A stretch of 64,000 nt of DNA from Actinomycetes bacterium (GTDB taxonomy: Bacteria > Actinomycetota > Acidimicrobiia > Acidimicrobiales > Acidimicrobiaceae), in contig JAJYNL010000015.1 of NCBI GenBank assembly GCA_021786375.1, positions 1 through 64,000 on the forward strand, in the 5' to 3' direction. A model generated the notes under the pieces. It made no database searches, had not been told where the DNA came from, and was given only the letters and a program-made list of their open reading frames with translations. This document shows, one piece after another, positions 4,129 through 20,865 of the stretch. Made by a program: the position numbers and the translations under genes. Positions within the stretch are counted from its first letter, which is position 1. Every line of letters starts with the position of its first letter.

Positions 4129-5421
4129 ATGCGAATCGCGATCGTCGGTCTGTGGCATCTCGGGTGCGTGTACGCCGGTTGTCTCGCTGCCGTTGGTCAT
4201 TCAGTCGTGGCGATTGACGAGGATGAAGGCGTCGTTCGAAGTCTGCTCGCGTGCGACTTGCCGATAGAGGAGCCTGGCTTGACTGACCTCCTTGCTCAAG
4301 GGGTTGGTGGCGGATCACTTCGTTTTAGCAGTCGCCTCGAGGACCTCAGGGAATCGGAGCTGGTTTGGCTGACGATTGACACTCCAGTTCGATCTGACGA
4401 TTCGGCAGATGTCGCGCCGGTGTTCGACACGGCGCTTCGGATTGCCGAAGTGATGGACCCGAAGGCAGTGTTGGCAATCTCGTCTCAGGTCCCACTTGGA
4501 ACGTCGCGCGAAGTCCTGAAGCGAATCCGTGCTGATAGGTCTGGCGACTGTCTTGAGATGGCTTATTGTCCCGAGAACCTTAGGTTAGGTTCCGCGATTA
4601 GCTCCTTTCGCGAAGCGGACAGGTTCGTTGTTGGTGCATCAGGATCGCACGCATCGAGGGTCGTGAGCGAGGCACTTAGTCCAACCGGCGTGCCGCTGCA
4701 GCTCATGTCGCTGGAATCTGCAGAACTGTCGAAACATGCACTCAACGCATTCCTCGCTATGTCGGTTGCCTTCGCAAATGAGATCGGCCGGTTGGCTGAA
4801 ATGGGTGGCGCTAACGCGCGGGATGTCGCAGAGTCGTTAAAGTCTGAGTCTCGCGTTGGCCCGCGAAGTTACGTGATGCCTGGAGGGCCGATTGCCGGTG
4901 GTACCCTCGCTCGTGACGTACGCTATCTGAACAGCCTGGGCGAAAAGTTTGGTCTCAGCATTCCACTGATATCATCGGTACTTGAGAGTAACTCAATTCA
5001 GCAGGCGTGGGCCGTCGACTCGCTCGCGGAGTTATGTTCGCCGAGTGCGGGTCCGGTTCTCGTTTTCGGTTTGGCGTACAAACAGGGTACAAGCACGCTA
5101 CGACGTAGCTTTGGCGTGCATGTCGCGAACCAGCTCGTGGCGAAAGGGTACCAAGCCCGTACTTACGATAGCCTTGCAGAGCCGAGCGCTTCATTGGCGG
5201 AAAGTGGTTCGGTCCGGATTGGGGAGCTCGACGCTGCTCTTGATGGCGCGGCTGCAGTAATTGTTTGCGCCGCTGACTCTTCGATCGACCAGTTGCTAGC
5301 ACTCATAGAGACCAGCGAGGCGCCACCAGTGGTCATCGACGCTATTGGGATTATTGCCAATTGGTCCACATCGGAGCGGATTGTCGTGAGGACTCCTGGG
5401 AGAGGCGTGGAGCCCCAGTGA
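4129..5421 (+). CDS. Nucleotide-sugar dehydrogenase (UDP-glucose/GDP-mannose dehydrogenase family), atypical active site
   Basis: N-terminal Rossmann MRIAIVGLWHLGCVYAGCLAAVGHSVVAID, YCPENLRLGSA, C-terminal VLVFGLAYKQGTSTLRRS; GGTLARD in place of GGxCFPKD. Confidence 0.8.
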   Translation: MRIAIVGLWHLGCVYAGCLAAVGHSVVAIDEDEGVVRSLLACDLPIEEPGLTDLLAQGVGGGSLRFSSRLEDLRESELVWLTIDTPVRSDDSADVAPVFDTALRIAEVMDPKAVLAISSQVPLGTSREVLKRIRADRSGDCLEMAYCPENLRLGSAISSFREADRFVVGASGSHASRVVSEALSPTGVPLQLMSLESAELSKHALNAFLAMSVAFANEIGRLAEMGGANARDVAESLKSESRVGPRSYVMPGGPIAGGTLARDVRYLNSLGEKFGLSIPLISSVLESNSIQQAWAVDSLAELCSPSAGPVLVFGLAYKQGTSTLRRSFGVHVANQLVAKGYQARTYDSLAEPSASLAESGSVRIGELDAALDGAAAVIVCAADSSIDQLLALIETSEAPPVVIDAIGIIANWSTSERIVVRTPGRGVEPQ

Positions 5422-6260
5422 AACGCAACGTGATCGTTACTGGAGCAAGCAGGGGACTCGGACGAGCGGTCGTGATGAGGCTGGCCCAGCACGGCTGGAA
5501 TGTATCCTTCGGCGCTAGAGCGGTGGGCGAGCTGCAAGCGCTCGATCTTGAACTCGAGAGATTAGGTTATTCCTGCGCGTACCGCCAGCTGGACGTGTCA
5601 CTCGCAGCGAGCGTTTCAGCGTTCTTTGATTGGTCAATCGACAAGTATGGTTTACCGGATGCGGTGGTGCACAGTGCTGGCGTATACGGTCCCTTTGGAA
5701 ATAGTCAGAGTGTCAATTGCGAAGCTTGGAATCGGACCATCTCCATCAACCTCGGAGGAACATTCCTGGTAGCCCAGCGAGCAATTGATGCCATGCAGCG
5801 AGCGGGGGGAGGCAGAATTGTTGTTCTGAGTGGCGGCGGCGCGACAAGTCCGATGCCAAATATTTCTGCCTATGCGGCATCAAAGGCTGGCGTAGTCAGG
5901 CTGGTGGAATCATTGGCGCTTGAGGTTGAGAGTTATGGGATTGCGATTAATGCGGTGGCGCCGGGGCTAATGGCCACTGACATGCTCAACACGTTGCTGG
6001 CGGAGAACAGGGATGTTGTGGGGGCATCGTTCTATGACCGCATGCAAGATGCGAAAGATCGTGGAGAGGATTCGTTGCCCGATGCTGTAGATTTGATTGC
6101 GTTTCTCCTCGATCGAACCATTCCTGGTCTTACTGGTAGGTTGATTAGCGCAAAGTGGGATCCTTGGAGAAATTGGGATACTGAGGCACCTGAGTTGCTA
6201 GATCGAGACGCTTTCACGTTGCGCCGTATCGTTCCGGGAAACAAGAGGTCACCCAGGTGA
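5418..6260 (+). CDS. SDR-family NAD(P)-dependent oxidoreductase
   Basis: GTG start overlapping the previous stop (GTGA); VTGASRGLG, NISAYAASKAGV (YxxxK), INAVAPG. Confidence 0.85.
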   Translation: MKRNVIVTGASRGLGRAVVMRLAQHGWNVSFGARAVGELQALDLELERLGYSCAYRQLDVSLAASVSAFFDWSIDKYGLPDAVVHSAGVYGPFGNSQSVNCEAWNRTISINLGGTFLVAQRAIDAMQRAGGGRIVVLSGGGATSPMPNISAYAASKAGVVRLVESLALEVESYGIAINAVAPGLMATDMLNTLLAENRDVVGASFYDRMQDAKDRGEDSLPDAVDLIAFLLDRTIPGLTGRLISAKWDPWRNWDTEAPELLDRDAFTLRRIVPGNKRSPR

Positions 6261-6468
6261 TGGGACTTTATACGCGGTTCTTCGTTCGGGGGGCCTTCGC
6301 GCCAGCCGTGCGTTCTCGGAATGGTTCCTGCGCCGGCATCAACCGAAGACTGTGGCGGCTGCTTGTGGAAGGTCGGCGGCGGAGGGTGCCCCCGGGGGGG
6401 GGCTGTGTCAGGTACTTCGTTTGCGGAGGGGCAGGCATGGTGCCGGTAGAAACTCTCCCTGCCAGCTG

Positions 6469-7449
6469 ATGCGATACACAGGCGCTATTCGCGCAAGGCT
6501 GCCCCACTTGGTACTCGGCGGTACCGGGTTTATTGGGCGCCATGTCGCCGTGGCGATCGCGCGGGCGGGAGATCAAGTAACGATTGCGAGCCGGTATCCG
6601 CCGAAATTTGAGTTTCCTGCAGATGTTCGGTCCCGCATTTCGTGGGCGTATGTGGATGTCGCGTCGGCAGACTGGCCTGCGTTGTTGCACGACGTCCGGT
6701 CTGTGCATCACTACGCTTGGGCCTCGGTTCCAGCCACCGCGCAGGAGGATCCTGTCAGGGATGTAGTCGTAAATCTCCTGCCATTGATCTCGCTTCTGGA
6801 GGCGTTTAAAGACCTTCCACGCGGATCTGTACCTCTCATATTCGCATCATCTGGAGGAACTGTCTATGGTAAGCTTTCGCATGTTCCGGTGGCCGAGGCT
6901 CACGAATTGGGATCGATTACGGCTTACGGAGCTACGAAGGTTGCGGCCGAACAGTACCTGCGGCTGTACGGCCACCTCTACGGGGCAGATGTTCGCATAG
7001 CTAGGATTTCAAATCCGTATGGAGCGGGCCAGTCCACGACGACTCCTCAAGGTGTAATTGCTGCAACTATTAACAGGGCGTTGAGGCGGGAGTCGGTAAC
7101 GATTTGGGGAGATGGCTCGATTGTCAGAGATTTTATTTATATTTCGGACGTAGTCGATGCGTTGGTGGCGCTCGGGGCAACTGACTCGAAGCGTCTAGAA
7201 TACACGGAGTTCAATGTCGGCACTGGAGAAGGCTCTAGCATTCGGGATGTCATCGACACGCTCGAGGTGATTCTGCAGCGGCGCATCATCATTAAATGTG
7301 AGAGTGGGCGAGATTATGACGTGCCCGTCAGTATTCTCGACGTGTCACGCGCGAAGAGAGTGCTCTCATGGCAGCCGAAAGTGTCTCTCTTAGAGGGAAT
7401 GCAGCGGACCGTGGAAGCCTTTAAGTGCGGCGCGGCCTTTTCCCATTGA
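6469..7449 (+). CDS. NAD-dependent epimerase/dehydratase (extended SDR)
   Basis: VLGGTGFIGRHVA, SSGGTVYG, YGATKVAAE (YxxxK), IYISDVVDALV, FNVGTGEGSSI. ATG at 6469 chosen. Confidence 0.8.
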   Translation: MRYTGAIRARLPHLVLGGTGFIGRHVAVAIARAGDQVTIASRYPPKFEFPADVRSRISWAYVDVASADWPALLHDVRSVHHYAWASVPATAQEDPVRDVVVNLLPLISLLEAFKDLPRGSVPLIFASSGGTVYGKLSHVPVAEAHELGSITAYGATKVAAEQYLRLYGHLYGADVRIARISNPYGAGQSTTTPQGVIAATINRALRRESVTIWGDGSIVRDFIYISDVVDALVALGATDSKRLEYTEFNVGTGEGSSIRDVIDTLEVILQRRIIIKCESGRDYDVPVSILDVSRAKRVLSWQPKVSLLEGMQRTVEAFKCGAAFSH

Positions 7450-7602: not shown

Positions 7603-8367
7603 TCAATGACCGAGGCGTATCTTGAAGAGGATGGTTATCCAGGTGAGGGGATCCTTAAGCAGCCGCACTTTCTTGCCATGGGCGTAGTCGCGAGAGCAAT
7701 ACTGTGCTGGCGCCTCAATTGGATTCGCGCCGGCAAGGATGAAGCGTCCGACGAGTTCCCAGTCTAGGTCAAAGCGGTTGGCGGTAAGCTCCACGGCTGA
7801 CAGTAAATCAGCGCGGAATACCTTCCACATGGTGAATGGGTCACGAAGGCGCGTGGAAAAAGCGATGTTGACCATTGACGCAAAGACCCAGTGCATAACG
7901 TTCATCGCAGTAGCCATCCAACGAGCCTCTTCGAAGTTGCGCATAGGGTGGCCGTGCGAATGGCGGCTCCCCAGTACAAAGGAAGTGAGGCCGTCCTCAA
8001 TCGGCTTCACGAGTTCCCAAATATCGGCAAATTGGTATTCATCGTCCGCATCGAAAATAGTGATGACGTCACCGCTGGCGGCGGTAAAGCCCTGTCTTAC
8101 GGCATTGCCCTTGCCATATGGCTTGTCCTGGAAGATTAGAACAACCCTCGGATCCGCGGCGAATTCTTTTACAACGTCGCGCGATCCATCACTAGACCCG
8201 CTCTCGACGATGACTAGTTCCAGCTCTGTGCCGGCTCGGGGGGATGAAAGTACCTGAAGAATCGCATTTCTAACAGTTGAGCCTTCCTGGTAGACAGGCA
8301 TCACTACTGAGAGGCGTGCGATAGGCGAAGATTTAGCGAAAGGATCGCGACTGGCGCTTCTAGGCAA
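7603..8367 (-). CDS. Glycosyltransferase family 2
   Basis: LSVVMPVYQEGSTVRNAI, VIVESGSSDGSRDVV, GKGNAVRQGFTAASGDVITIFDADDEY (DxD). Confidence 0.85.
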   Translation of the reverse strand: MPRSASRDPFAKSSPIARLSVVMPVYQEGSTVRNAILQVLSSPRAGTELELVIVESGSSDGSRDVVKEFAADPRVVLIFQDKPYGKGNAVRQGFTAASGDVITIFDADDEYQFADIWELVKPIEDGLTSFVLGSRHSHGHPMRNFEEARWMATAMNVMHWVFASMVNIAFSTRLRDPFTMWKVFRADLLSAVELTANRFDLDWELVGRFILAGANPIEAPAQYCSRDYAHGKKVRLLKDPLTWITILFKIRLGH

Positions 8368-8455: not shown

Positions 8456-9175
8456 TTAGTCAAGCCTGTAGCCAGCAGCAACGGCATCGGCCCTGAACAT
8501 CTTGACTGTATCTAGAGATAGTGCTCCTAGGTCACGGCCCAGAATAGCTATCTTCTGCCATAGGTCCGGTGTCATGGTAATTATGTCGCAGCCGCACTGC
8601 TGAGCTTGTACAAGATTGAGAATTTCGCGAGGGCTCGCCCAAAGTAGTTTGTGGCGGGACCTTTGGTGTACAATATTTGCCGCTTCCGACATTATCCGCG
8701 TCGGATCTATGCCCGTGTCGGCGATTCTTCCCGCGAAGACGGAGATGATCGCGTCCGCATCGCGAGCTAATGCGTCAGTAACGGTCTTGACTTGGTCGAG
8801 AGTTAGAATAGCGGTCACGTTGAGCCTCACCCCACGCGACGAGAGGGCATTGATTTCAGGTGCGAGTGAACGCCCGGTCGTGGTGGTGACGGGGACCTTG
8901 ACAAAGACATTTGGTCCTATCGTCGAAATGGAGAGAGCTTGTCGGAAGATCTCTTCCGGAGTGTCTGAGAAGACTTCGAGGGAAAGTGGCTTAGGGTTTG
9001 TGAGCGCGGATGCCTTGGTCGCAAAGGTCCGGTAATCATCGACGCCCGCTCTCCTCATGAGAGTGGGATTTGTAGTAAACCCCGCTACCGAGGACTCTTG
9101 GGCGAAGGTCTCCAGCGACGCGAGGTCAGCAGCATCGACATATTTATCGATGAGGTTGAGGTCAAAGTCCGCCAC
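8456..9175 (-). CDS. Transaldolase family protein (TalC/FSA-like)
   Basis: AGFTTNPTLMRRAG, NVFVKVPVTTT (Schiff-base Lys), LNVTAILTLDQ, IMSEAANI. Confidence 0.85.
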   Translation of the reverse strand: MADFDLNLIDKYVDAADLASLETFAQESSVAGFTTNPTLMRRAGVDDYRTFATKASALTNPKPLSLEVFSDTPEEIFRQALSISTIGPNVFVKVPVTTTTGRSLAPEINALSSRGVRLNVTAILTLDQVKTVTDALARDADAIISVFAGRIADTGIDPTRIMSEAANIVHQRSRHKLLWASPREILNLVQAQQCGCDIITMTPDLWQKIAILGRDLGALSLDTVKMFRADAVAAGYRLD

Positions 9176-9321
9176 TCGCTACACCTGCTCTCTATGTTCC
9201 TACCCATTGTAAGGTCGGCGGTCAACTTGGCTGAGCGGGATGGTGGACGCCCAGCGGTCGCGAATATCCTAGTGTATGTTTCGTGGCGTGTTGGCACGAC
9301 CGATTGCGGGGAGGATTCTTA

Positions 9322-9927
9322 GTGGGGAGCGTGTACGTAACAGAGTTCCTGGAGGAGGCTGCGTCGATAGCCGGTCGGATAGACAGCGAGCAGATTGAGG
9401 CGATGGCTTCGGAGCTGGCAATTGTGAAGGAGCGTGGCGGCCGAGTCTTCTTCGCCGGTTCTGGCGGTGGCGCGGGCCACGCATCCCACGCGACCTGCGA
9501 CTTCAGAAAGTTGCTTGGCATCGAGTCCTACAGCGTCTCCGATAACGTCACCGAGCTGACGGCACGTATTAATGACGAGTCGTGGGAGGATTCGTACACT
9601 TCCTGGTTGAAGGCATCTCGTTTTGGGCCCAACGATTGCTTGTTCGTTTTTTCCGTCGGCGGGGGGGACGCTGGCAGGGAGGTGAGTATGCAGCTGGTGA
9701 GAGCAATTGACTTCGCCCGGGAAGTCGGCGCCGCCGTCGTCGGCATCGCTGGGCGCGACGGCGGGCACCTTGCCAAGAACGGCGTAGCCGTGTTGATACC
9801 GAGTATCCATCCAGGCAACGTCACGGCTCAAACCGAAGGCTTTCAGGCGGTTGTCTGGCACTTGCTGCTAGGGCATCCTTCACTGATGGCGGCCCGCCCC
9901 GTCTGGGAATCGATTGAGGAGAGATAA
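9322..9927 (+). CDS. gmhA: SIS-domain phosphoheptose isomerase, GmhA-like
   Basis: GGRVFFAGSGGGAGHASHATCDFRKLLGIE, LFVFSVGGGDAGREVSMQLVRAIDFARE; GTG start with GGGGAGGA upstream; next to other heptose genes. Confidence 0.75.
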   Translation: MGSVYVTEFLEEAASIAGRIDSEQIEAMASELAIVKERGGRVFFAGSGGGAGHASHATCDFRKLLGIESYSVSDNVTELTARINDESWEDSYTSWLKASRFGPNDCLFVFSVGGGDAGREVSMQLVRAIDFAREVGAAVVGIAGRDGGHLAKNGVAVLIPSIHPGNVTAQTEGFQAVVWHLLLGHPSLMAARPVWESIEER

Positions 9928-9931
9928 GGCC

Positions 9932-10879
9932 TTGAAAGGGCACGTGGTAGTAACCGGTGGAGCTGGGTTCATCGGATCGAACTTGGTAGATACTCTGCTC
10001 AAGGACGGATTCAGCGTTACCGTGATCGACAACTTTTCGACTGGTTTTCGACGCTACTTGAATGCCGATAACGTCAGGGTGGTTCAGCGCGATATCACAT
10101 GTGCTAAGCCAGACGACCTTGCTGTCGATTTTGTTGGCGCGGAAGCGGTTTATCATTTGGCGGCTAACGCGGATGTGCGTCACGGCTGGAAACACCCAAG
10201 GCTTGATCACGAGCAGAACCTCGTCGCGACACTGAATGTCCTGGACGCGTGCGAGAAAGCTGACGTCCCGGATGTCGTGTTTAGCTCAACCGGTTCCGTC
10301 TACGGTGAAACTCGCGAGATTCCAACTCCGGAACGGGCGATGTTTCCCTTACAAACGAGTCTTTACGCAGCCTCAAAGGTCGCCGCTGAGGCTTTCCTCC
10401 AGGCTCATGCGGCAGCTGGTAGGGTGCGGGCGACAATATTCCGTTTCGTTTCAGTGCTCGGCCCAAGGTATTCACATGGCCATGTATTCGACTTTATGTG
10501 GCAGCTGCGGCGGTCGCCCGACAGGCTTAGGATACTCGGTGATGGCACTCAGAGGAAGTCGTATATGCACGTCGATGACTGCGTGGCCGCACTTATGTCG
10601 CTTCGTCCAGCTGGCGATCTTGAGGTATTTAACCTCGGTACAGACGGCTTCTGCACCGTATCGGATTCCGCCACTTGGATTTCCGCCCGCCTAGGACTCC
10701 AGCCCACTTACGAATTTACGGGAGGAGACAGGGGATGGATTGGTGATAACCCGTTCATTTATCTAGATGTTTCTAAGGCTGCCACTGCCGGGTGGAGGAC
10801 GCGCAAAACAATCAAGGAGTCAGTGGAGGAAACCGTCGATTGGCTGGTAGAAAATGAATGGATTTTCGATGCTCGTTGA
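9932..10879 (+). CDS. NAD-dependent epimerase/dehydratase (UDP-glucose 4-epimerase-like)
   Basis: VVVTGGAGFIGSNLVDTLL, SSTGSVYGE, YAASKVAAEAF, SYMHVDDCV. Start uncertain (ORF opens at 9914). Confidence 0.8.
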   Translation: MKGHVVVTGGAGFIGSNLVDTLLKDGFSVTVIDNFSTGFRRYLNADNVRVVQRDITCAKPDDLAVDFVGAEAVYHLAANADVRHGWKHPRLDHEQNLVATLNVLDACEKADVPDVVFSSTGSVYGETREIPTPERAMFPLQTSLYAASKVAAEAFLQAHAAAGRVRATIFRFVSVLGPRYSHGHVFDFMWQLRRSPDRLRILGDGTQRKSYMHVDDCVAALMSLRPAGDLEVFNLGTDGFCTVSDSATWISARLGLQPTYEFTGGDRGWIGDNPFIYLDVSKAATAGWRTRKTIKESVEETVDWLVENEWIFDAR

Positions 10880-11870
10880 CAGGGGATGTGGAGGGTTTGG
10901 CGTCGTCGGGGCGGGCTTGATCGGTGGCAAGCGCTCGGAAGCCCTCGTCAAGTTGGGTTGCCAGCCGAAAGCGGTCTATGATCCTGATGGCGCGAGAGCT
11001 GAACGGCTGGCGGCCTCCCTAGGTGCGGTTTCCACGAACGGCGTCAGTGAGCTGTTGGAGGCAGTCGGTGACGATGGTATCGTGGTTGTCGCAACGACTC
11101 ACGACGCACTTGCGCCGGTCGCGGCGCATGCGATTCGGGCTGGCTTCAACGTTCTGATCGAAAAGCCCGGGGCCATCGATCTCCGTAGCGTCGATGATCT
11201 AATGCAGGCTGCCGAAAGCGCGAATAGCTATGTCCAAGTTGGCTTCAACCACAGATTTCATCCCGCCGTGCGCATGGCACGCGACGATCTGCAGCGCGGG
11301 ATTCTCGGATTGCCCATCCTCGTCCGGGCTACCTATGGTCATGGGGGTCGCCAGGGTTACGAAAGCGAATGGCGCTTCCGGAAGGAGTTGTCCGGGGGCG
11401 GGGAATTGCTTGATCAAGGAACGCACCTGATTGACCTTGTGAACTTTCTCTTAGAGGGAAGCGTGGAACATGTGTATTCCAGCCTGGCGAGTCTGTATTG
11501 GCGGGGCACGGTGGAGGACAATGCGTTTTTGCATCTGAGGGAGCCGCGGCGCGAGGTCGAGGTGTGGCTCCATGCGAGCTGGACAGAATGGAGGAACAAG
11601 TTCCTTTTTGAGGTCTTTTGTGAACGCGGTAAGCTTGTTGTGGAGGGCCTCGGTGGATCATACGGTCCTGAGACTTACCGCGTCTTCGAGATGGTTGATG
11701 GTATTGGGCCTCCCGTGATACGTTCTACAGAGTTTCCACCAGGGGATGCTTCCTGGCTGGAAGAGAGCGGGGATTTCATCCGCGGAATTGGTGGCGGGGT
11801 CGCTCTAGGGGCGAAGTTGAACGACGCCCGAAGGGTTTTGGCGATTGTAGCGCGGGCCTACGAACAGTGA
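10854..11870 (+). CDS. Gfo/Idh/MocA-family oxidoreductase
   Basis: FGVVGAGLIGGKRSEAL, VLIEKPGAIDLRSVDDL (EKP), VGFNHRFHPAVR, GGELLDQGTHLIDL. Confidence 0.85.
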   Translation: MNGFSMLVDRGCGGFGVVGAGLIGGKRSEALVKLGCQPKAVYDPDGARAERLAASLGAVSTNGVSELLEAVGDDGIVVVATTHDALAPVAAHAIRAGFNVLIEKPGAIDLRSVDDLMQAAESANSYVQVGFNHRFHPAVRMARDDLQRGILGLPILVRATYGHGGRQGYESEWRFRKELSGGGELLDQGTHLIDLVNFLLEGSVEHVYSSLASLYWRGTVEDNAFLHLREPRREVEVWLHASWTEWRNKFLFEVFCERGKLVVEGLGGSYGPETYRVFEMVDGIGPPVIRSTEFPPGDASWLEESGDFIRGIGGGVALGAKLNDARRVLAIVARAYEQ

Positions 11871-12847
11871 TCATCTCTCGCACTCCGCTTCGGATCTCAC
11901 TCGGCGGCGGTGGTACCGACCTCCCATCTTTTTATAGATCCCACGGTCCTGGGTTTCTTATTGCAGCTGCCATCAATAAGTACGTCTACGTGGCCGTACA
12001 TGATAATTTTGAGCCTAAATACCTGCTGAAGTACTCGGAAATAGAAAATGTCCCTGAACTGGGCCAGATACGACATCCTATGATCCGTGCGGCATTTGCG
12101 CACCTCGGCATAACTCCTGGTGTAGAAGTGACATCGATAGCCGATATTCCGGCTGGCACAGGTTTGGGGAGTTCTGGATCGTTCGCCGTGGGACTTCTGA
12201 ATGCTGCGTCCCGATATAAAGGCAGGTCGGTGGAGAGCGAGTGGTTGGCCTCGACGGCCGCCGACCTTGAGATCAACGCGCTGCACGAACCAGTTGGCAA
12301 GCAGGACCAGTACATCGCAGCGTACGGAGGGCTGACCGCATTCGAGTTCAGAAGCGATGAATCTGTTCGGGTCGAGCCGGTGAGGATGGATCCCTCATAT
12401 CGTCAAGATCTAGAGCATTCCTTGATGCTCTTTTTCACGGGCATACGGCGCTCGGCATCTGACGAGTTAAGAGGGCTTACGGTGCCCGCGCCCGCGAACG
12501 TGGAGTCTGTGCGGGAGAACCTTGGCGAGGTTCGCGCTGCTGGCTACGAGGCGCTCAAAGTTCTGGAGAGCGGCGACGTCGAGAAGTTCGGCACCTTGTT
12601 GACCAATCAGTGGAAGTTAAAGTTGGAACGCCAACCTTCGCCAATACACAATGAGATCGATGCAATCATCGATGTTGCTATCAGCGCCGGCGCCTATGGC
12701 GGCAAGCTGATCGGTGCAGGCGGCGGCGGTTTTCTGCTATTGTCGGCGAGCAATAGGCGGGTGGTTCGGAGTGCAATGCGGGAGCGCGGGCTCATCGATG
12801 TGCCGATTGCTTTTGATCACGTCGGCGCCACAACGGTGACTGCATGA
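11867..12847 (+). CDS. hddA: GHMP kinase, D-glycero-D-manno-heptose 7-phosphate kinase-like
   Basis: MIISRTPLRISLGGGGTDLPSFY, ADIPAGTGLGSSGSFAVGLLNA, GKQDQYIAAYGG, GAYGGKLIGAGGGGFLLL. Confidence 0.8.
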   Translation: MIISRTPLRISLGGGGTDLPSFYRSHGPGFLIAAAINKYVYVAVHDNFEPKYLLKYSEIENVPELGQIRHPMIRAAFAHLGITPGVEVTSIADIPAGTGLGSSGSFAVGLLNAASRYKGRSVESEWLASTAADLEINALHEPVGKQDQYIAAYGGLTAFEFRSDESVRVEPVRMDPSYRQDLEHSLMLFFTGIRRSASDELRGLTVPAPANVESVRENLGEVRAAGYEALKVLESGDVEKFGTLLTNQWKLKLERQPSPIHNEIDAIIDVAISAGAYGGKLIGAGGGGFLLLSASNRRVVRSAMRERGLIDVPIAFDHVGATTVTA

Positions 12848-13563
12848 CACCCAAGGTTGCGGTTGTGCTGGCTGGCGGGCTGGGATCAAGAATCTCGGCA
12901 GTCGCGGACGGTAAGCCGAAGATCCTGCTCGATGTTGCAGGGAAGCCGTTCCTCCGTCGAAAGCTCGACGAGCTTGCCCGCAACGGTGTGACTGGTGCAC
13001 TTCTACTGCTTGGATACGGAGCCGAACAGGTCACGCAATGGCTCAACACCAACCCAAGCCCGATCGCGGTAGCGTGCATCGTTGATGGACCGACGCTGCA
13101 GGGAACTGGAGGCGCCCTAGTGGATGCACTACCACTGCTGCCTGAGCTCTTCTTCCTGACCTACGGTGACTCTCTTCTGGAATTAGATTATGGCAAGCTA
13201 GCAGGCCGGGTCTCGGGTGACGCCGCCAGGCGGAGCTGTCTGGCGGTTACAAAGCCTCAAGTCTTCATGGACGGCAGGTGCAACACGGCGGTCCGTGGCG
13301 GGCGTGTAGTTGCGCATAGCAAGGTCGAGAGGACTGCGGACATGCATTGGCTTGACTACGGCCTGTCACTGCTCCGCAAGACTCATCTAAGGCAGTTCAC
13401 CACGGCTACACGGCCGCTCGACTTATCAGTTCTGTACGAGGAGCTGAGTCGCGACGATAAGTTACTTGCCCATGACACTATCGAGCCTTACTGGGAAATA
13501 GGTACACCAGAATCACTCGCGTATGTGCGACAGCTGTTCGACGAGATAGGACCATTTGTCTAG
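12844..13563 (+). CDS. hddC: Nucleotidyltransferase, D-glycero-D-manno-heptose 1-phosphate guanylyltransferase-like
   Basis: VAVVLAGGLGSRI...GKPKILLDVAGKPFL; overlaps the kinase stop (ATGA). Confidence 0.75.
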   Translation: MTPKVAVVLAGGLGSRISAVADGKPKILLDVAGKPFLRRKLDELARNGVTGALLLLGYGAEQVTQWLNTNPSPIAVACIVDGPTLQGTGGALVDALPLLPELFFLTYGDSLLELDYGKLAGRVSGDAARRSCLAVTKPQVFMDGRCNTAVRGGRVVAHSKVERTADMHWLDYGLSLLRKTHLRQFTTATRPLDLSVLYEELSRDDKLLAHDTIEPYWEIGTPESLAYVRQLFDEIGPFV

Positions 13564-14222
13564 CACGTGAGTATTTTTAGCACTTCTCCTAAGTCGTCAG
13601 CTTGAATGTGAGGGACCGTGGCTTTGCACTCGCGCCTCGCCAACTGACCTCTTGTCTGCGACGGAAGGCAGATGGAGCGTAAGGGTATTGCCGCGCCCGC
13701 CTCGATATCGCTGGAACGGTCGCCGATCATCCAGCTATCTGAAACTCGCAAATTCAGATCGCTTATCGCGGATCTGATTAGACCCGGTCGTGGTTTGCGA
13801 CAAGAACAGTTATGGGCGGCGTCGTGTGGGCAAGTATATATCGCGTCAACCTCTGGCACTTGGCTGAGAAGATATTCATTCATCGTCGCGAAGGTGTAAG
13901 GATCCAGATCTCCCCGCGCTATATCGGGCTGATTTGTGACGATAACTAACATATAGCCAGCTTTGTGTACAGCCCGAGCAAAGATGGGAAATGTTCTTAG
14001 CAGTTCAACTTCGTCTCGCGAGCGGGCGCTTCCAACTGTTCCATCGCTTCGGGTAACGTTCCACACTACGACGCCGTCACGGTCGAGGAATAGAGCCGGT
14101 TTGCCGGTGAACAGTGTAGGTGTCGTGGGCCGTGCTGGGAAGGTCTTTAACGGCAATAGGTCCAAGCTTCGCGCGCCAATGGACGAAGTGTACTCGGGAT
14201 TGGGGGCCATTGTTGCGTCCAT
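13560..14222 (-). CDS. gmhB: HAD-IIIA hydrolase, D-glycero-D-manno-heptose 1,7-bisphosphate phosphatase-like
   Basis: ALFLDRDGVVVWN, VIVTNQPDIARG, YTCPHDAAHNCSCRKPRPGLI (Zn-loop), WMIGDRSSDIEAG. Convergent with hddC-like gene, sharing CTAG stops. Confidence 0.85.
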   Translation of the reverse strand: MDATMAPNPEYTSSIGARSLDLLPLKTFPARPTTPTLFTGKPALFLDRDGVVVWNVTRSDGTVGSARSRDEVELLRTFPIFARAVHKAGYMLVIVTNQPDIARGDLDPYTFATMNEYLLSQVPEVDAIYTCPHDAAHNCSCRKPRPGLIRSAISDLNLRVSDSWMIGDRSSDIEAGAAIPLRSICLPSQTRGQLARRECKATVPHIQADDLGEVLKILTC

Positions 14223-14230
14223 ATCCAGCT

Positions 14231-16720
14231 CTAGCGGCCAGTGCCCGGCATTCGTACGGTCATGCTACTCCTCGCGATAACCGGGGGTATGATCCCCAAT
14301 ACTCGCTCAATAGCGTGGAGAAGCGTTCCGTCGGTTGGGAGCGGTTCTGGTGGCATTTGATCAAGGGACAGCTGAAGCTTGTTTAGCAGTCGAAGCAGAT
14401 CTTGAGAGGCCCAGAACATTGTCCCTACAGGAAATTCAAAGTAGGATGGGGTTCGTCCTGACCAGCCCATTGTTGCGAGCAATGCCTCACCTAACTCGAG
14501 GTTGGTGGTCCAGCCTACGGCATGTGGATCGTCGGGAAAGGCGATTGCAATGGATGGATCGATACTCATTCTGTCCACAATGAGATCTAGCGTTGGAAAG
14601 CGCCCGCCGATTGTGTTTTCAAGCAGGAATGTACGCCAGGCGCTGACCATCTGTCTGTCTGAGATATGTAGGGAATCCTTGGTATGCACGTGGCCGACAA
14701 AGTCATAGTGATCGGCGATGCGCATAGAGAGTTCCAGGAATGGCCAGACGTCCCGTCCTCGGTTCGGGTGTATGGTTGTTTCTTTGGGCGTGAAGCCTCT
14801 CTCCGCCGCAATCGTCCATGCGCGCGCCGCAGTCTCTTCGTCGGATGCGGAGAAGTATAAGTCCGGTGTGGTCGCGTTACTCTGAAGACGAAGAAGGATC
14901 TCGTCGAGGAGGTAGTCATAGAACACATGAACGTGGAGTGCGACGCGGGAAGGCACTGCGCTAAACGGTCGGGTGGATCGCGTTAAGGTTTGTCGGGGTA
15001 TGCCCCAAGATAGGGGAAGTGACGCGCGCAAGTGACGTGGATATGATTCCACTGGCTCCCAGGCAAAGTTGTTGCGTTCGGCGACTTCTCCTGGGTTGAA
15101 GCCAACAATGGGTTTCAATTTTCCAAGGGATCCAGTTGACCACGAGCGCACGTATTCCTCGGCCTCGGATAGGCCGTTAGCATGTAATTGCCTGATGAGC
15201 GTCAGGGTGTGGATGCGTCGCTCCTTTGCTTCCTGGAGCGTTGCGAGTAGGCGCTCTACGTAGCGTTCCATTGATAACGCAGCCCGTACTGCTGTTGTTG
15301 ACGCCTCACGCCGAGCTTCGCCGGTGCGGGATGCCAGGACCTCTACCGTCATCCTGGCCATCTGGGAGGCATCGGCGTACGGTACGACGTAGCCGACTGG
15401 CGTGCCTGCGGATGTGGATAGATCATCGATCAGGTCTGGTATGCCGCCTGCTCCCATGAAACAGATAACAGGTGTTCCGCCATAAAGGGCGTCGAGTGCC
15501 ACGTTGGGCAAAGGGTCCATTCTGGAAGTTAGCAGAAATACGGCGGCCCGGTCTATAAGGTCGTTCGGATTATCAAGGTGATCCAGGAATGTGAAGCGTG
15601 AACGCACTTTGGAATGAGCGAGCTGTAAACGCAGCATTGAATGGTAGGCTGACTCATTCTGCAGGGCACCCAGCCAAATGAAGTGAACATCGTCAGTATC
15701 CGCTTCCCTCGCGATGAGCTCGGCTGTGGTTATAAAAATGTCAACTCCCTTGCGGTAGTCCACTGTCCCGCAGCCAACAATGAGACGCTTGCCTGTCCAC
15801 TGTCGCAGTAGAGTTCCGGCATATCCGTTGTTCTGATGCCGAGAGCTGCGTATCGCCTCATACGGGATCTTCCCTTGGGGGAAAACCCGTGAATTTAATA
15901 TGCCCGGGCTCCCTAGTGCTTCGACTGTTGCATCCCGGACAAAGGTTGAGGAGTACACTACTAGATCTGAATTCCGGACTGTTGCATCATGCAGCGGAAG
16001 CCAGTCAAGCGTCGGATATTCATGTATGAGCGAAACAATTGCCTTGGAGCAGTCGCGGTCGAAGGTTGAAAGGAAATCGCCGGCGACGACGGTATTCGCG
16101 ATCACATATTCGAATTTGGATGGAAGCGATACGTGCGCCCTGTGGGGTGTAGACCGCCCGGGGGGGAGGTCAGCAGTGCTGGTTATTGTTGCTGTTACAC
16201 AATATTGAAGAAACTCCGAAAGCAGCGGTCCGCCCCGCATAAATACTAAATATGGGTCGAATGTCCGTGCGAGGTGTCGGAGCAACTCTAGGCCAAGCAT
16301 TGGAGCGCCGGTGACGGTTGCCTCGTGCAGCACGAACATTATCTTCGGCTTGGCGGAAGGAGATAGCCATCCATCGAGGTCTATAAAGCCGCGACCGGGA
16401 AAGCGGACGTCCAGTTCTCGGCGCGGAGCGCGATCCTCCCGCTGTCCGTAAACCAGGTAATGGAGAAACGGATCAATGACGTTGGGATGAACATCTGGGT
16501 ACCTAGAGAGGTAGAACTTCTCATCAAACAGCGAAGTGAGAGAAGTAGCGATTGTCGGTCGGCTGCGAAAGCTTGCCATGGCTCGTGAACCGTACTTCCG
16601 AAGAGGCTGAGTTGCGAGCTTGCGAAGTGGTCTGGGTACTGATGAACTTGAGCGGTCAAGCGCAATGGCTAGTATCTTGGCCGAGCCCCTTAACAGCCGT
16701 AGCTTGGTGTTATCTTTCAT
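14231..16720 (-). CDS. Two-domain glycosyltransferase: GT4-type domain plus C-terminal rhamnan-synthesis-F-like domain
   Basis: 829 aa; YLSRYPDVHPNVIDPFLHYLVYG N-term, GT4 core (RLIVGCGTVDYRKGVDIFI...PLPNVALDALYGGTPVICF), C-term NRGRDVWPFLELS...GHVHTKDSLH...PVGTMFWA. Confidence 0.75.
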   Translation of the reverse strand: MKDNTKLRLLRGSAKILAIALDRSSSSVPRPLRKLATQPLRKYGSRAMASFRSRPTIATSLTSLFDEKFYLSRYPDVHPNVIDPFLHYLVYGQREDRAPRRELDVRFPGRGFIDLDGWLSPSAKPKIMFVLHEATVTGAPMLGLELLRHLARTFDPYLVFMRGGPLLSEFLQYCVTATITSTADLPPGRSTPHRAHVSLPSKFEYVIANTVVAGDFLSTFDRDCSKAIVSLIHEYPTLDWLPLHDATVRNSDLVVYSSTFVRDATVEALGSPGILNSRVFPQGKIPYEAIRSSRHQNNGYAGTLLRQWTGKRLIVGCGTVDYRKGVDIFITTAELIAREADTDDVHFIWLGALQNESAYHSMLRLQLAHSKVRSRFTFLDHLDNPNDLIDRAAVFLLTSRMDPLPNVALDALYGGTPVICFMGAGGIPDLIDDLSTSAGTPVGYVVPYADASQMARMTVEVLASRTGEARREASTTAVRAALSMERYVERLLATLQEAKERRIHTLTLIRQLHANGLSEAEEYVRSWSTGSLGKLKPIVGFNPGEVAERNNFAWEPVESYPRHLRASLPLSWGIPRQTLTRSTRPFSAVPSRVALHVHVFYDYLLDEILLRLQSNATTPDLYFSASDEETAARAWTIAAERGFTPKETTIHPNRGRDVWPFLELSMRIADHYDFVGHVHTKDSLHISDRQMVSAWRTFLLENTIGGRFPTLDLIVDRMSIDPSIAIAFPDDPHAVGWTTNLELGEALLATMGWSGRTPSYFEFPVGTMFWASQDLLRLLNKLQLSLDQMPPEPLPTDGTLLHAIERVLGIIPPVIARSSMTVRMPGTGR

Positions 16721-17012: not shown

Positions 17013-18134
17013 CTAGTTAGAACTGCTCCTCCGCTTGAGCGCATCGCTCGTACGTCGCAACGGGGCCGTGAGCCTCCAGCTTGTTGAGTCAAGAAGTTGC
17101 GATACACGCTTCTCAAGGTCGCGATTTCTCACCTCTAGATCGTGAGCGCTTGCCAAAGCGGCCTTCAGTGCCTCAACCTGAGTAGATAAATCTGCGGCAA
17201 CTGTTCCGAGCCTATCGAGTTCTAGGTCTTTTCGCCGGGTGTCCGCCTCGAAGTGATTTGCCAGCCGTAGAGCAGCTCCCATGTCGCTGAGGCGGAGGTG
17301 CCAACCTTCGACGTCACGCACAAAAGATGGGTTGTCAAGCACGCTATGGGTCTCAGCGGCAGCAAGCAAGGACTTAAACACCTCGCTTACGAGGCGCGGC
17401 GCCTCCTCGTCGATAAGCACTTCGCTTGGCTCATACACAGTGTGACGAAGACTTGTCTCCAAGAACTCTTGTTCGAACGCATGCAGTTCTTGTTGGTCGA
17501 CTCTTGAGCCCAGCTGTTCGGCCATGCGAGTTAAGAGCTGTCCTGGGGTACTAATAAGGTCGTCATAATTGACTAGCAGTCGATCGCGCCCGTGTGTGTA
17601 AAGTAGGCTAGTGATTACGTATTGGAGCCACATCAAGTAGCTATGTTCGCCAAGCAGTCCATTTCGAGCGGTTAATGAGTCCTTCACGCTTCTAGGGTTG
17701 CGGACCATCAGAACATAGTGTATTTCCGAATCCAGGGTATCGAAGATACTTCTCCAAAACGGCATTAGCTTCGCGATGCGAGGATCTTTGAGAGCGAACA
17801 TTGAATGCCTGGTAAGACGATCTGTCAAGAGGTCTAGCGCCGTGTTGGCAAAGCCTTCGCCTTTTAACGAGGTGGCCTCGCTTTCGGTAAAAGGCGCGAT
17901 GGAGTCCCACTCCTGGCCCAGATATCGCATCATCTCGATGTTTAGCGCGTTGAATTCTGCATCTTCGAAGAATCCCTTCGGATTGTCCGCAGCGAGGGGT
18001 ATTAGTGATTCGCCAGCAGAGATGCCAAATACCTGGAGTGCGCGCGTCATGGCGCTGGTGCCGCTGCGATGCATACCAAGCACCACGAAAATCCCGCGCC
18101 TTTCTTGCATGGTCGGTGTCCCTTCTCCGGTCAA
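17013..18134 (-). CDS. Sulfotransferase family protein
   Basis: P-loop-like PAPS site [45 protein letters not shown]; coiled-coil tail [22 protein letters not shown]. Confidence 0.85.
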
Positions 18135-19951
18135 GACATAAGTGCCAGTATCAAACTAACGCATTCTGCAAGGTCTTGAGAAGTGGTGTCGACACGTATC
18201 TCTGGCAGTAGCGGTGGTTCGTACGGCGATGAAACGCCAGTGAAATTGGGTATTTGGCCAGCACGAGCCTTTGCGTAGAGTCCCTTGGGATCGCGCCCCG
18301 CGCATACGTCGACTGGTGCGTCGACATGGACCTCTATGAATTCCCCTCGATCGAACAAGGTGCGGGCGCGTTGCCTGTCGGCAGCAAAAGGCGAAATGAG
18401 GGCAACAATTACGATAATCCCGGCGTCTACCATCAATCTCGCTACTTCGGCGACCCTTCGGATGTTCTCGGCGCGGTCGGCTTCATCGAAACCTAAGTCT
18501 GCGTTCAGGCCATGCCTTACGTTGTCCCCGTCGAGCAAATAAGTGAGGCGGCCTTGCGCATGAAGGTGGCTTTCTAGCGCATTTGCGATTGTCGATTTTC
18601 CCGAGCCAGACAAGCCGGTCAGCCAGATGCAGCACGGCCGCTGACCCAGTAGCTGTTCGCGTGCCTGTCTGTCAACGTTTACCAGGTGCCAGGTAAGGTT
18701 GGCGCCTCTTCTGAGTTCGTGCTGGATCACCCCGGCGGCAATCGTGGCGGTCGTCTCCCTATCAATCAAGATAAAGCCTCCGAGTTGCTTACTTTCCGAG
18801 TAGGCAGCATACGGGATGGGCTCTGCAAGAGAGATGTGGACGTCTCCGATCTCGTTTGCGTCAAGCTGTCTCGCAGCCAGAGCAGATCCTGTCGCCGGGT
18901 CCCGTCGCGAGCGGATGGCGGTCACGGATGCGCGGCTGCTTGCGTAATTGAGCTTTAATAAATATTCGCGGCCCGGTATTAGGGGCTTCTCGGCTAGCCA
19001 GATCAACTGAGCACGGAACTGAGCAGCATAAGACAGTGGTTCATCCGGCGGCGATAGGACGTTTCCGCGCCCGACATCGAGATCCCCCGCCAGTGTTACG
19101 CACACGGAGTCACCCGCCGTTGCCTGTCCTGTGGCGGCGTCGCCGATATAGATCTCTTCGATTGTCGACGCCTTGCCCGAGGGGATGACAACTACTGGAT
19201 CTCCGTTCCGGAGCGTTCCCTGTGCAATGCGGCCGCAATAACCGCGGAAATCCGAAGTCGGGCGCAGCACGAGTTGAACGGGCAGCTGGAATGGTGCCGC
19301 GGGATCGACCATGCCGGGCGATACCTCCGCTAGCCATGTGAGCACCGAGGGACCGGCGTACCAGGAGGCTACCACTGAGTCGACCAGGTTTTCACCTGTC
19401 GTTGCGCACGTCGGAATCGATGTTGCAGACCGGAATCCGAGTTGGCTGGCGATGTTGACGAACGCAGATTCTATCCGTTTGAAGGTCTCGTGATCCCACC
19501 CGACGAGGTCCATCTTGTTGACGACGAGGGCTACGTGGCTCACCCTGAACATCGCGAGAATCGACATGTGGCGCATCGTTTGTTCGACTACTCCCCGTCG
19601 AGCGTCTACCAGAACAATCGCCGCATCCGCTCCCGAAGCGGCAACTGCCATGTTCCGGGTGTACTGCTCATGGCCAGGGGAGTCAAGGACGATGTAGTCT
19701 CGATCCCCAGTTGAAAAGAATCGATATGCCACGTCTACGGTAATTCGCGCAGCCCGTTCGTGCTCGAGCCCGTCGAGTACAAGGGCAAAGTCCAGGTCGT
19801 CTTGACGCGTTCCAAACCGTCGGGAGTCGGTCGTTAGCGTCTCGACCTCATCTATTCGCAACTGTCCAAGATCGTATAGGAGACGCCCGATTAGGGTGCT
19901 CTTGCCGTCATCGACGCTGCCGCAGGTGATGAAGCGGAGGGTATCGCGCAC
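18131..19951 (-). CDS. cysNC: Bifunctional sulfate adenylyltransferase large subunit / APS kinase (CysNC)
   Basis: GTPase domain ([42 protein letters not shown]) fused to APS kinase ([30 protein letters not shown]). Confidence 0.92.
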
Positions 19952-20865
19952 TAGAAGTACCCTTCGCTCTTCTTCTTTTCCATTGAAGCGGGAGCATCGC
20001 GATCTATCAGGCGACCACGCCGTTCCGAATACGTTGAAGTTGCGGTCTCATCGATGATCTTCTCAATCGTGTCTGCTTCGCTTTCGAAGCCAGCCGTCAG
20101 CGGATAGCAGCCAAGAGTCCGAAACCTGACTTTTCGTAGCTGAGGTTGCTCACCCGGGCGAAGTCTCAGGCGGCCATCGTCTACCATGATCCAGTGCCCG
20201 TCACGCTCAACGACAGGGCGCGGCCTTGCAAAATAAAGGTCCACCACCGGAATTTCCGCGAGCTTGATGAACCTCCATATTTGAAGCTCTGTCCAGTTTG
20301 ATAGCGGGAAGACCCTCAAGGTATGTCCTGCCGTAACGCGCGTGTTGTAGTTGGACCAGAACTCTGGACGCTGCTCTCGAGGGTCCCACCTATGTCCGGG
20401 GTCCCTTGGCGAGAAGATTCTCTCTTTGGCGCGTGACGCCTCCTCGTCGCGCCTCGCACCTGCGAAAACGACGTCGAAGCGATACGAATCGAGTGCCTTG
20501 CGTAGGGCCTGCGTTTTCATCACGTCGGTGTACGCAGGGCCATGGTCGAAAGGGTTGTAGCCGGCGGCAAGACCTTCTTGGTTTGTGGAGACAATCAGGT
20601 CCACGTCTGCGCTGGAGGCGAGATTATCGCGGAACTCGATCATTTGCCGGAACTTCCACGTCGTATCGATATGTAACAGTGGAAACGGCAGCCGACCTGG
20701 GGCGAAGGCCATCTGGCAGAGGGCGAGGAGCGCTGAAGAGTCCTTCCCGATTGAGTAAAGCATTATCGGATTCCGCGCGCCCACATATGCCTCGCGGATG
20801 ATGTCTATAGATTCCGCGACAAGGCCGCGGAGCGTCTGGTCGCTGAGTATTCCGTCAGATAACAA
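19951..20865 (-). CDS. cysD: Sulfate adenylyltransferase subunit 2
   Basis: [52 protein letters not shown]-term [10 protein letters not shown]. Confidence 0.93.

Follow-up and report, generated by a model that had tools for sequence, protein, structure and literature searches.

We analysed a 64,000-nucleotide stretch of an Acidimicrobiaceae draft genome of 2.83 Mb (contig JAJYNL010000015.1, positions 1 to 64,000), hereafter the window, and propose that a gene cassette in its first 20 kb encodes a GDP-octose pathway of the lincosamide type serving a cell-surface glycan. We put the probability of this reading at about two in three. What we observe directly is the gene set itself, the subfamilies to which its members belong, how closely they are associated, and homology with the lmb and ccb genes of lincomycin and celesticetin biosynthesis. 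An earlier note on this DNA had placed a complete GDP-D-glycero-D-manno-heptose pathway at positions 8456 to 14222. Every protein that it named is an open reading frame there and belongs to the family given, and domain matches agree for the isomerase, kinase, phosphatase, nucleotidyltransferase and transaldolase. The conserved cassette is wider, and also takes in a GT2 glycosyltransferase (7603-8367), a short-chain dehydrogenase/reductase (SDR, 5361-6260) and a relative of UDP-glucose dehydrogenase (UGDH, 4129-5421). The genes of this region are:

4129..5421, + strand: UGDH-family relative of LmbL-type nucleotide-sugar dehydrogenases (Pfam UDPG_MGDP_dh; motifs AGGTLARD, GLWHLG and PENLRLG).
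5361..6260, + strand: SDR of the cassette (adh_short, 155 bits); the true start is probably downstream of the TTG.
6352..7449, + strand: EpiA, a second NAD-dependent NDP-sugar epimerase/dehydratase (Epimerase, 147 bits, from residue 53 on); the real start probably lies well downstream of 6352.
7603..8367, - strand: GT2 glycosyltransferase, similar to dolichyl/undecaprenyl-phosphate-sugar transferases (Glycos_transf_2, 99.5 bits; best NCBIfam match AglJ-like, 66 bits).
8456..9175, - strand: cassette transaldolase, predicted LmbR role (TIGR02134, 273 bits against a cut-off of 282).
9283..9927, + strand: SIS-domain ketose-/aldose-phosphate isomerase, predicted LmbN role (SIS_2, 28 bits; SVGGG loop with an insertion); the start codon is uncertain and the conserved part begins at about residue 16.
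9914..10879, + strand: EpiB, NAD-dependent NDP-sugar epimerase, predicted LmbM role (Epimerase, 157 bits).
10854..11870, + strand: Gfo/Idh/MocA oxidoreductase, predicted LmbZ role (Pfam GFO_IDH_MocA).
11867..12847, + strand: GHMP sugar-phosphate 1-kinase of the HddA superfamily, predicted LmbP role (GHMP kinase domains).
12844..13563, + strand: sugar-1-phosphate nucleotidyltransferase, predicted LmbO role (NTP_transf_3; GTP as the presumed substrate).
13560..14222, - strand: HAD-IIIA phosphatase, GmhB-like, predicted LmbK role (DxD motif; Zn-binding CPH...CSC).

The plus-strand genes from the SIS isomerase through EpiB, the Gfo/Idh oxidoreductase and the kinase to the nucleotidyltransferase overlap successively by 4-26 bases, as in one operon. 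The transaldolase and GT2 genes point away from this operon, and the phosphatase gene is convergent with it.

To our knowledge, the octose pathway of lincomycin and celesticetin is the only studied pathway that joins a transaldolase, SIS isomerase, GHMP kinase, HAD phosphatase, guanylyltransferase, epimerase, UGDH-family protein and oxidoreductase. Using the cassette transaldolase profile, we searched blind for lincosamide clusters among 394 Streptomyces genomes. The two best matches (137 and 116 bits; next 88) lie in two clusters, each of which holds homologues of all eight of LmbR, N, P, K, O, M, L and Z. In the first cluster the SIS domain is preceded by an N-terminal extension, a DegT aminotransferase gene separates O from R, and MDMPI, PhzF and luciferase-like genes are present; the second carries a carrier-protein domain on its oxidoreductase (CcbZ). 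Because this gene content is as described for lmb and ccb, whose gene assignments the literature confirms (PMC4351081, PMC12945683), we identified the two as the lincomycin and celesticetin clusters.

The likeness of the cassette to these clusters extends beyond the clustering of the eight homologues. Gene order is related (N M Z P O in the window; L M N Z P O S R in lmb), and the cassette shares with the lincosamide pathway of S. lincolnensis and S. caelestis an LmbL protein lacking the catalytic cysteine and an LmbN-type loop, described below. LmbZ and CcbZ score 267 and 277 bits to the cassette Gfo/Idh profile, compared with 127 bits for the best solved structure, and their tree pairs them with a cassette protein from an acidobacterium (SH-aLRT, an approximate likelihood-ratio test, 99). 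LmbO and CcbO score 148 and 137 bits to the cassette nucleotidyltransferase profile. LmbK and CcbK are nested inside the cassette HAD proteins, in a clade without transaldolase-free loci (98/95). In contrast, the cassette has neither the LmbS aminotransferase nor the ergothioneine glycosyltransferase LmbT, adds an SDR and uses another transaldolase subfamily; it shares a glycan island with genes for glycosyltransferases and sulfation, whereas the lincosamide clusters lie with carrier-protein and adenylation genes. With LmbS and LmbT missing, this is not an antibiotic cluster, and its product is probably not aminated at C6.

For comparison we assembled 80 related loci, from genome contigs and other sources, in which the cassette genes reappear in a small number of stereotyped orders; the counts below refer to 75 loci that carry the isomerase subfamily of the window. 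The cassette gene set recurs in about 75 loci bearing the labels of about twelve phyla and is far from a chance association, although single phylum labels may be wrong, since many of these loci come from metagenome bins. Its core order is P-O-N-K-R (kinase, nucleotidyltransferase, isomerase, phosphatase, transaldolase). A fuller form, M-L-sdr-Z-P-O-N-K-R, is carried by a Rhizobium plasmid and by contigs whose labels read Verrucomicrobiota, Bacteroidota, Myxococcota or Pseudomonadota; Acidobacteriota show close variants of it. Among the 75 isomerase-subfamily loci, the kinase is present in 74, the nucleotidyltransferase in 71, the phosphatase in 62, a transaldolase in 59, the SDR in 34 and an orthologue of the GT2 gene in 12; an LmbS-like gene was found in one of the 75 and an LmbT-like gene in none. 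EpiA is not a constant member, with a close relative only in locus L044 among the related loci compared. Seven heptose-type loci of related genomes and plasmids (L158 on a Streptomyces plasmid, L129 on a Rhizobium plasmid, L037, L039, L040, L041 and L176) resemble the cassette in keeping an SIS protein, usually a HAD protein and an HddA-type kinase together, but differ from it in that the SIS protein scores 44-91 bits to the cassette profile and has a canonical S/T-S-G loop where aligned, and in that they have no transaldolase. A rearranged full set is found on plasmid 3 of Lawsonia intracellularis (L126), where the genes comprise SIS, HAD, transaldolase, a membrane protein, nucleotide sugar dehydrogenase, SDR, Gfo/Idh, a 'galactokinase' and nucleotidyltransferase.

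The cassette isomerases form a subfamily of their own, scoring 272-346 bits to their profile, compared with at most 123 bits for every other SIS protein seen. Their SVGGG loop, which carries an insertion, is invariant in 72 of 72 cassette SIS proteins, whereas the GmhA loop reads STSGNS. In the alignment, SVxGG plus the insertion is common to all cassette isomerases, LmbN, CcbN and two more transaldolase-linked loci; the aligned SIS proteins from transaldolase-free loci retain an S(T/S)SG loop. This loop touches the terminal phosphate of the sugar in SIS domains and so might track a longer chain. In the SIS tree, the cassette proteins, LmbN, CcbN and the other transaldolase-linked SIS proteins form a clade at 99/96 (96/92 in the reduced set), and a grouping of LmbN with GmhA-type SIS proteins was rejected (p = 0.013). 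A search for phage homologues of the isomerase returned none. Separately, loci L172 (G374) and L173/L174 (G501) hold an intermediate SIS subfamily (115-123 bits) with a HAD protein, L172 and L173 also a transaldolase; the UGDH relative of L172 has Asn for the catalytic Cys (GGNLERD). Judged by their sequences, these loci may represent a further diverged octose-like pathway.

The transaldolase is bound to this isomerase subfamily. A survey of 198 genomes from the class found the isomerase subfamily (at least 272 bits; next value 79) in six genomes from six families, and the transaldolase subfamily (at least 301 bits; next 106) in exactly the same six; a chance coincidence of the two sets has a probability of ~1e-11 when kinship is ignored. 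Among complete loci, those in which the isomerase is flanked on either side by 5 kb or more (42 of the 75), 37 have a transaldolase, compared with none of the seven heptose-type loci (p ~1e-5). The enzyme is thus a near-obligate partner of the isomerase and dedicated to the pathway, which does not support the earlier proposal that it merely tunes the pool of sedoheptulose 7-phosphate; as a heptose pathway needs no transaldolase of its own, the association asks for another explanation. That it is a housekeeping pentose-phosphate enzyme lying in the island by chance is extremely improbable, and we rejected this reading: its annotation stands at family level only, but two further transaldolases are encoded elsewhere in the genome, co-occurrence with the isomerase subfamily is strict, and the cassette subfamily recurs in dozens of cassette loci from many phyla.

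Cassette transaldolases invariantly carry K93, which forms the Schiff base, together with E67, F147, R150, S181 and R183. A fructose-6-phosphate aldolase (FSA) was excluded, as Glu67 and Phe147 stand in place of the FSA residues, which we take to be Gln and Tyr at these positions. A sulfoquinovose-type transaldolase pathway was likewise rejected, BmSF-TAL being only a distant match (33 bits) and the kinase and nucleotidyltransferase not fitting. Matches of profile A1 to TAL-effector repeat chains in the Protein Data Bank were taken as a composition artefact. Two actinobacterial cassettes (L055 and L179) have a different transaldolase type in this place, with a SLFYGR/SLFWGR motif, as if the type were exchangeable and yet some transaldolase needed. 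In three Streptomyces genomes (L164, L165 and L166), a gene resembling transaldolases (86-88 bits against the cassette profile) adjoins an LmbS-like aminotransferase gene (377-394 bits); on this gene content, they may be further amino-octose-type biosynthetic clusters.

The protein at 4129-5421 has the three-domain fold of UDP-glucose 6-dehydrogenases such as TuaD and AglM but Thr in place of their catalytic cysteine. In the alignment, LmbL, CcbL and their counterparts from 17 further cassette loci show the same Cys-to-Thr replacement, and most of these Thr-type proteins share GLWHLG and PENLRLG. Classical UGDHs (L181 and L176) retain the cysteine; these enzymes, among them a further copy encoded by the same genome, combine it with PEFLRE and a start of the GxVGL type. 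The 4129-5421 protein is therefore not expected to oxidise its substrate to a uronic acid, and uronic-acid synthesis was excluded as its function.

The strongest competitor to an octose is the heptose itself. On that reading, the transaldolase would use fructose 6-phosphate and erythrose 4-phosphate to provide sedoheptulose 7-phosphate, and the isomerase would be a diverged GmhA. The cassette and the GmhA-HddA-GmhB-HddC pathway do agree in all four reaction types and in the superfamilies of the enzymes. Transaldolases classically yield sedoheptulose 7-phosphate, and the cassette enzyme retains the classical Glu67/Phe147 and the phosphate-binding Arg150/Ser181/Arg183. The profile and structure searches that the earlier note had called for cut both ways. 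The nearest solved structures are GmhA for the isomerase, HddA for the kinase, GmhB for the phosphatase and, for the nucleotidyltransferase, the 6-deoxy-mannoheptose-pathway enzyme 5xhw (61 bits). The AlphaFold model of the isomerase (pLDDT, the model's confidence score, 92) adopts the fold of GmhA, to which its sequence is 20-25% identical, and an acid/His pair is kept at the GmhA catalytic positions. Curated heptose models, however, were missed widely: the isomerase reached 45.5 bits against a cut-off of 320 (PRK13938) and 34.3 against 209 (TIGR00441), the kinase 127.5 against 600 for HddA, and the nucleotidyltransferase 55 against 300 for HddC. The phosphatase reached 110 bits against 178 (PRK08942) and 90 against 150 (TIGR00213), with the catalytic DxD and Zn ligands present, and LmbK is a phosphatase of this kind too. 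A fucose-type kinase was excluded, since HddA-type structures (3k85, 117 bits) outscore fucokinase (64 bits). Also against a heptose are the absence of a transaldolase from all seven heptose-type loci, the LmbN-like phosphate loop of the isomerase and the presence of LmbL- and LmbZ-type enzymes, which have been characterised in the octose pathway only. What holds of the earlier claim is that the genes make up a complete pathway to a nucleotide-activated higher sugar, with enzymes like HddA, GmhB and GmhA, a transaldolase of its own, and further modification of the sugar by the epimerase and the Gfo/Idh/MocA oxidoreductase; its identification of that sugar as a heptose is not supported. The type of chemistry runs from ketose phosphate to NDP-aldose, but the sequences do not fix heptose as the substrate, and we consider the heptose reading probably wrong and its being correct unlikely.

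Less likely again is another higher sugar, a C9 or a C7/C8 of different stereochemistry, made by the same logic with another aldehyde acceptor for the transaldolase. At least three transaldolase subfamilies sit with cassettes and their relatives, so the acceptor may vary, and sequence does not fix substrates. Against this, no comparable C9 pathway was found in the literature searched, and the conserved downstream enzymes fit the octose set. Several observations do weigh against the octose pathway. LmbR and the cassette transaldolase share a superfamily and a pathway position, but LmbR belongs to another subfamily, with Gln/Leu where the cassette has Glu67/Phe147, and branches with other Streptomyces proteins. 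Trees or scores reveal no specific kinship of LmbP, LmbO and LmbM to the cassette kinase, nucleotidyltransferase and epimerase; LmbM and CcbM score 274 and 293 bits to the EpiB profile, for which the archaeal GalE-1 structure 3ehe gives 362. The kinase, nucleotidyltransferase and UGDH trees do not settle the places of LmbP, LmbO and LmbL, and the SIS tree has long branches, forks within its wider clade becoming weak once long rows are dropped. LmbL-type and LmbZ-type genes are present in only 14 and 36 of the 75 cassette loci, and the core may therefore produce a sugar of simpler structure. With these limits on the transaldolase, kinase, nucleotidyltransferase, epimerase and UGDH relative, the cassette and lincosamide pathways probably descend as wholes from one ancestor, with support that differs from gene to gene.

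Based on these comparisons, we propose a plausible octose pathway for the island. We infer each of its substrates, a C8 chain, a preference for GTP and delivery of the product to a glycan, and no sequence feature examined measures chain length. In lincosamide biosynthesis, LmbR forms an octulose from ribose 5-phosphate as acceptor and fructose 6-phosphate or sedoheptulose 7-phosphate as donor (PMC5854111), and GDP-octose is converted to GDP-lincosamide by LmbM, LmbL, CcbZ and CcbS (PMC12945683). By analogy, the cassette transaldolase would transfer a C3 unit from fructose 6-phosphate or sedoheptulose 7-phosphate to ribose 5-phosphate, yielding octulose 8-phosphate, which the SIS isomerase would convert to octose 8-phosphate. 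The GHMP kinase would then place a phosphate on C1 to give the 1,8-bisphosphate, the HAD phosphatase would remove the 8-phosphate, and the nucleotidyltransferase would turn the resulting octose 1-phosphate into GDP-octose. EpiB, the LmbL-type dehydrogenase, the Gfo/Idh oxidoreductase and the SDR could subsequently carry out epimerisation and oxidation, dehydration and re-reduction of the side chain. The SDR, by inference a ketoreductase, may reduce a keto intermediate in place of the amination by LmbS. Finally, the polyprenyl-phosphate-sugar-transferase-like GT2 protein, a candidate octosyl transferase, would pass the sugar to the glycan.

The cassette lies in a low-GC island (positions 1-20 kb; GC 0.54-0.58, compared with 0.60-0.68 beyond). 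Among named organisms, one of the nearest at this locus is the cultured acidophile Acidithrix ferrooxidans (L045), whose kinase is 62% identical and which has the same core genes. Two further features lie downstream of the cassette:

14231..16720, - strand: GT4 glycosyltransferase fused to a rhamnan-synthesis protein F domain (RgpF, 128 bits; Glyco_trans_1_4, 62 bits).
17013..20865, - strand: sulfotransferase-like protein (weak match), CysNC and CysD, for supply of the sulfate donor 3'-phosphoadenosine 5'-phosphosulfate (PAPS), at the edge of the island.

Together, the GT4-RgpF fusion, the weak sulfotransferase, CysNC and CysD suggest that the glycan of the island is sulfated in a PAPS-dependent manner. 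The 923-residue protein at 948-3719 looks multi-spanning and matches no Pfam family (YfhO at E 0.76); its appearance makes it a candidate GT-C glycosyltransferase.

The kind of pathway proposed here is already known; what would be new is its occurrence in a surface-glycan setting and its spread across phyla, to judge from the genes compared. No description of such an octose cassette outside lincosamides was found in the literature searched, which left out most subscription papers, so that novelty is unproven; in the same literature, octoses derived from a nucleotide-octose by this route are known only from lincosamide antibiotics. We regard it as evenly balanced whether the octose pathway is a common, hitherto unnamed source of surface-glycan sugar in about a dozen phyla, with a Cys-less dehydrogenase for the side chain, from which the lincomycin/celesticetin pathway was recruited. 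If the octose reading is true, annotation pipelines mask octose genes as heptose, galactokinase and UDP-glucose-dehydrogenase genes, and the cassettes would offer many new enzymes, among them Cys-less LmbL types and LmbN types, toward new lincosamides. A C8 sugar would then be a common and overlooked component of bacterial envelopes, the chemistry of an 'antibiotic sugar' would be in widespread use for surface decoration, and the lincosamide sugar pathway would have found its origin.

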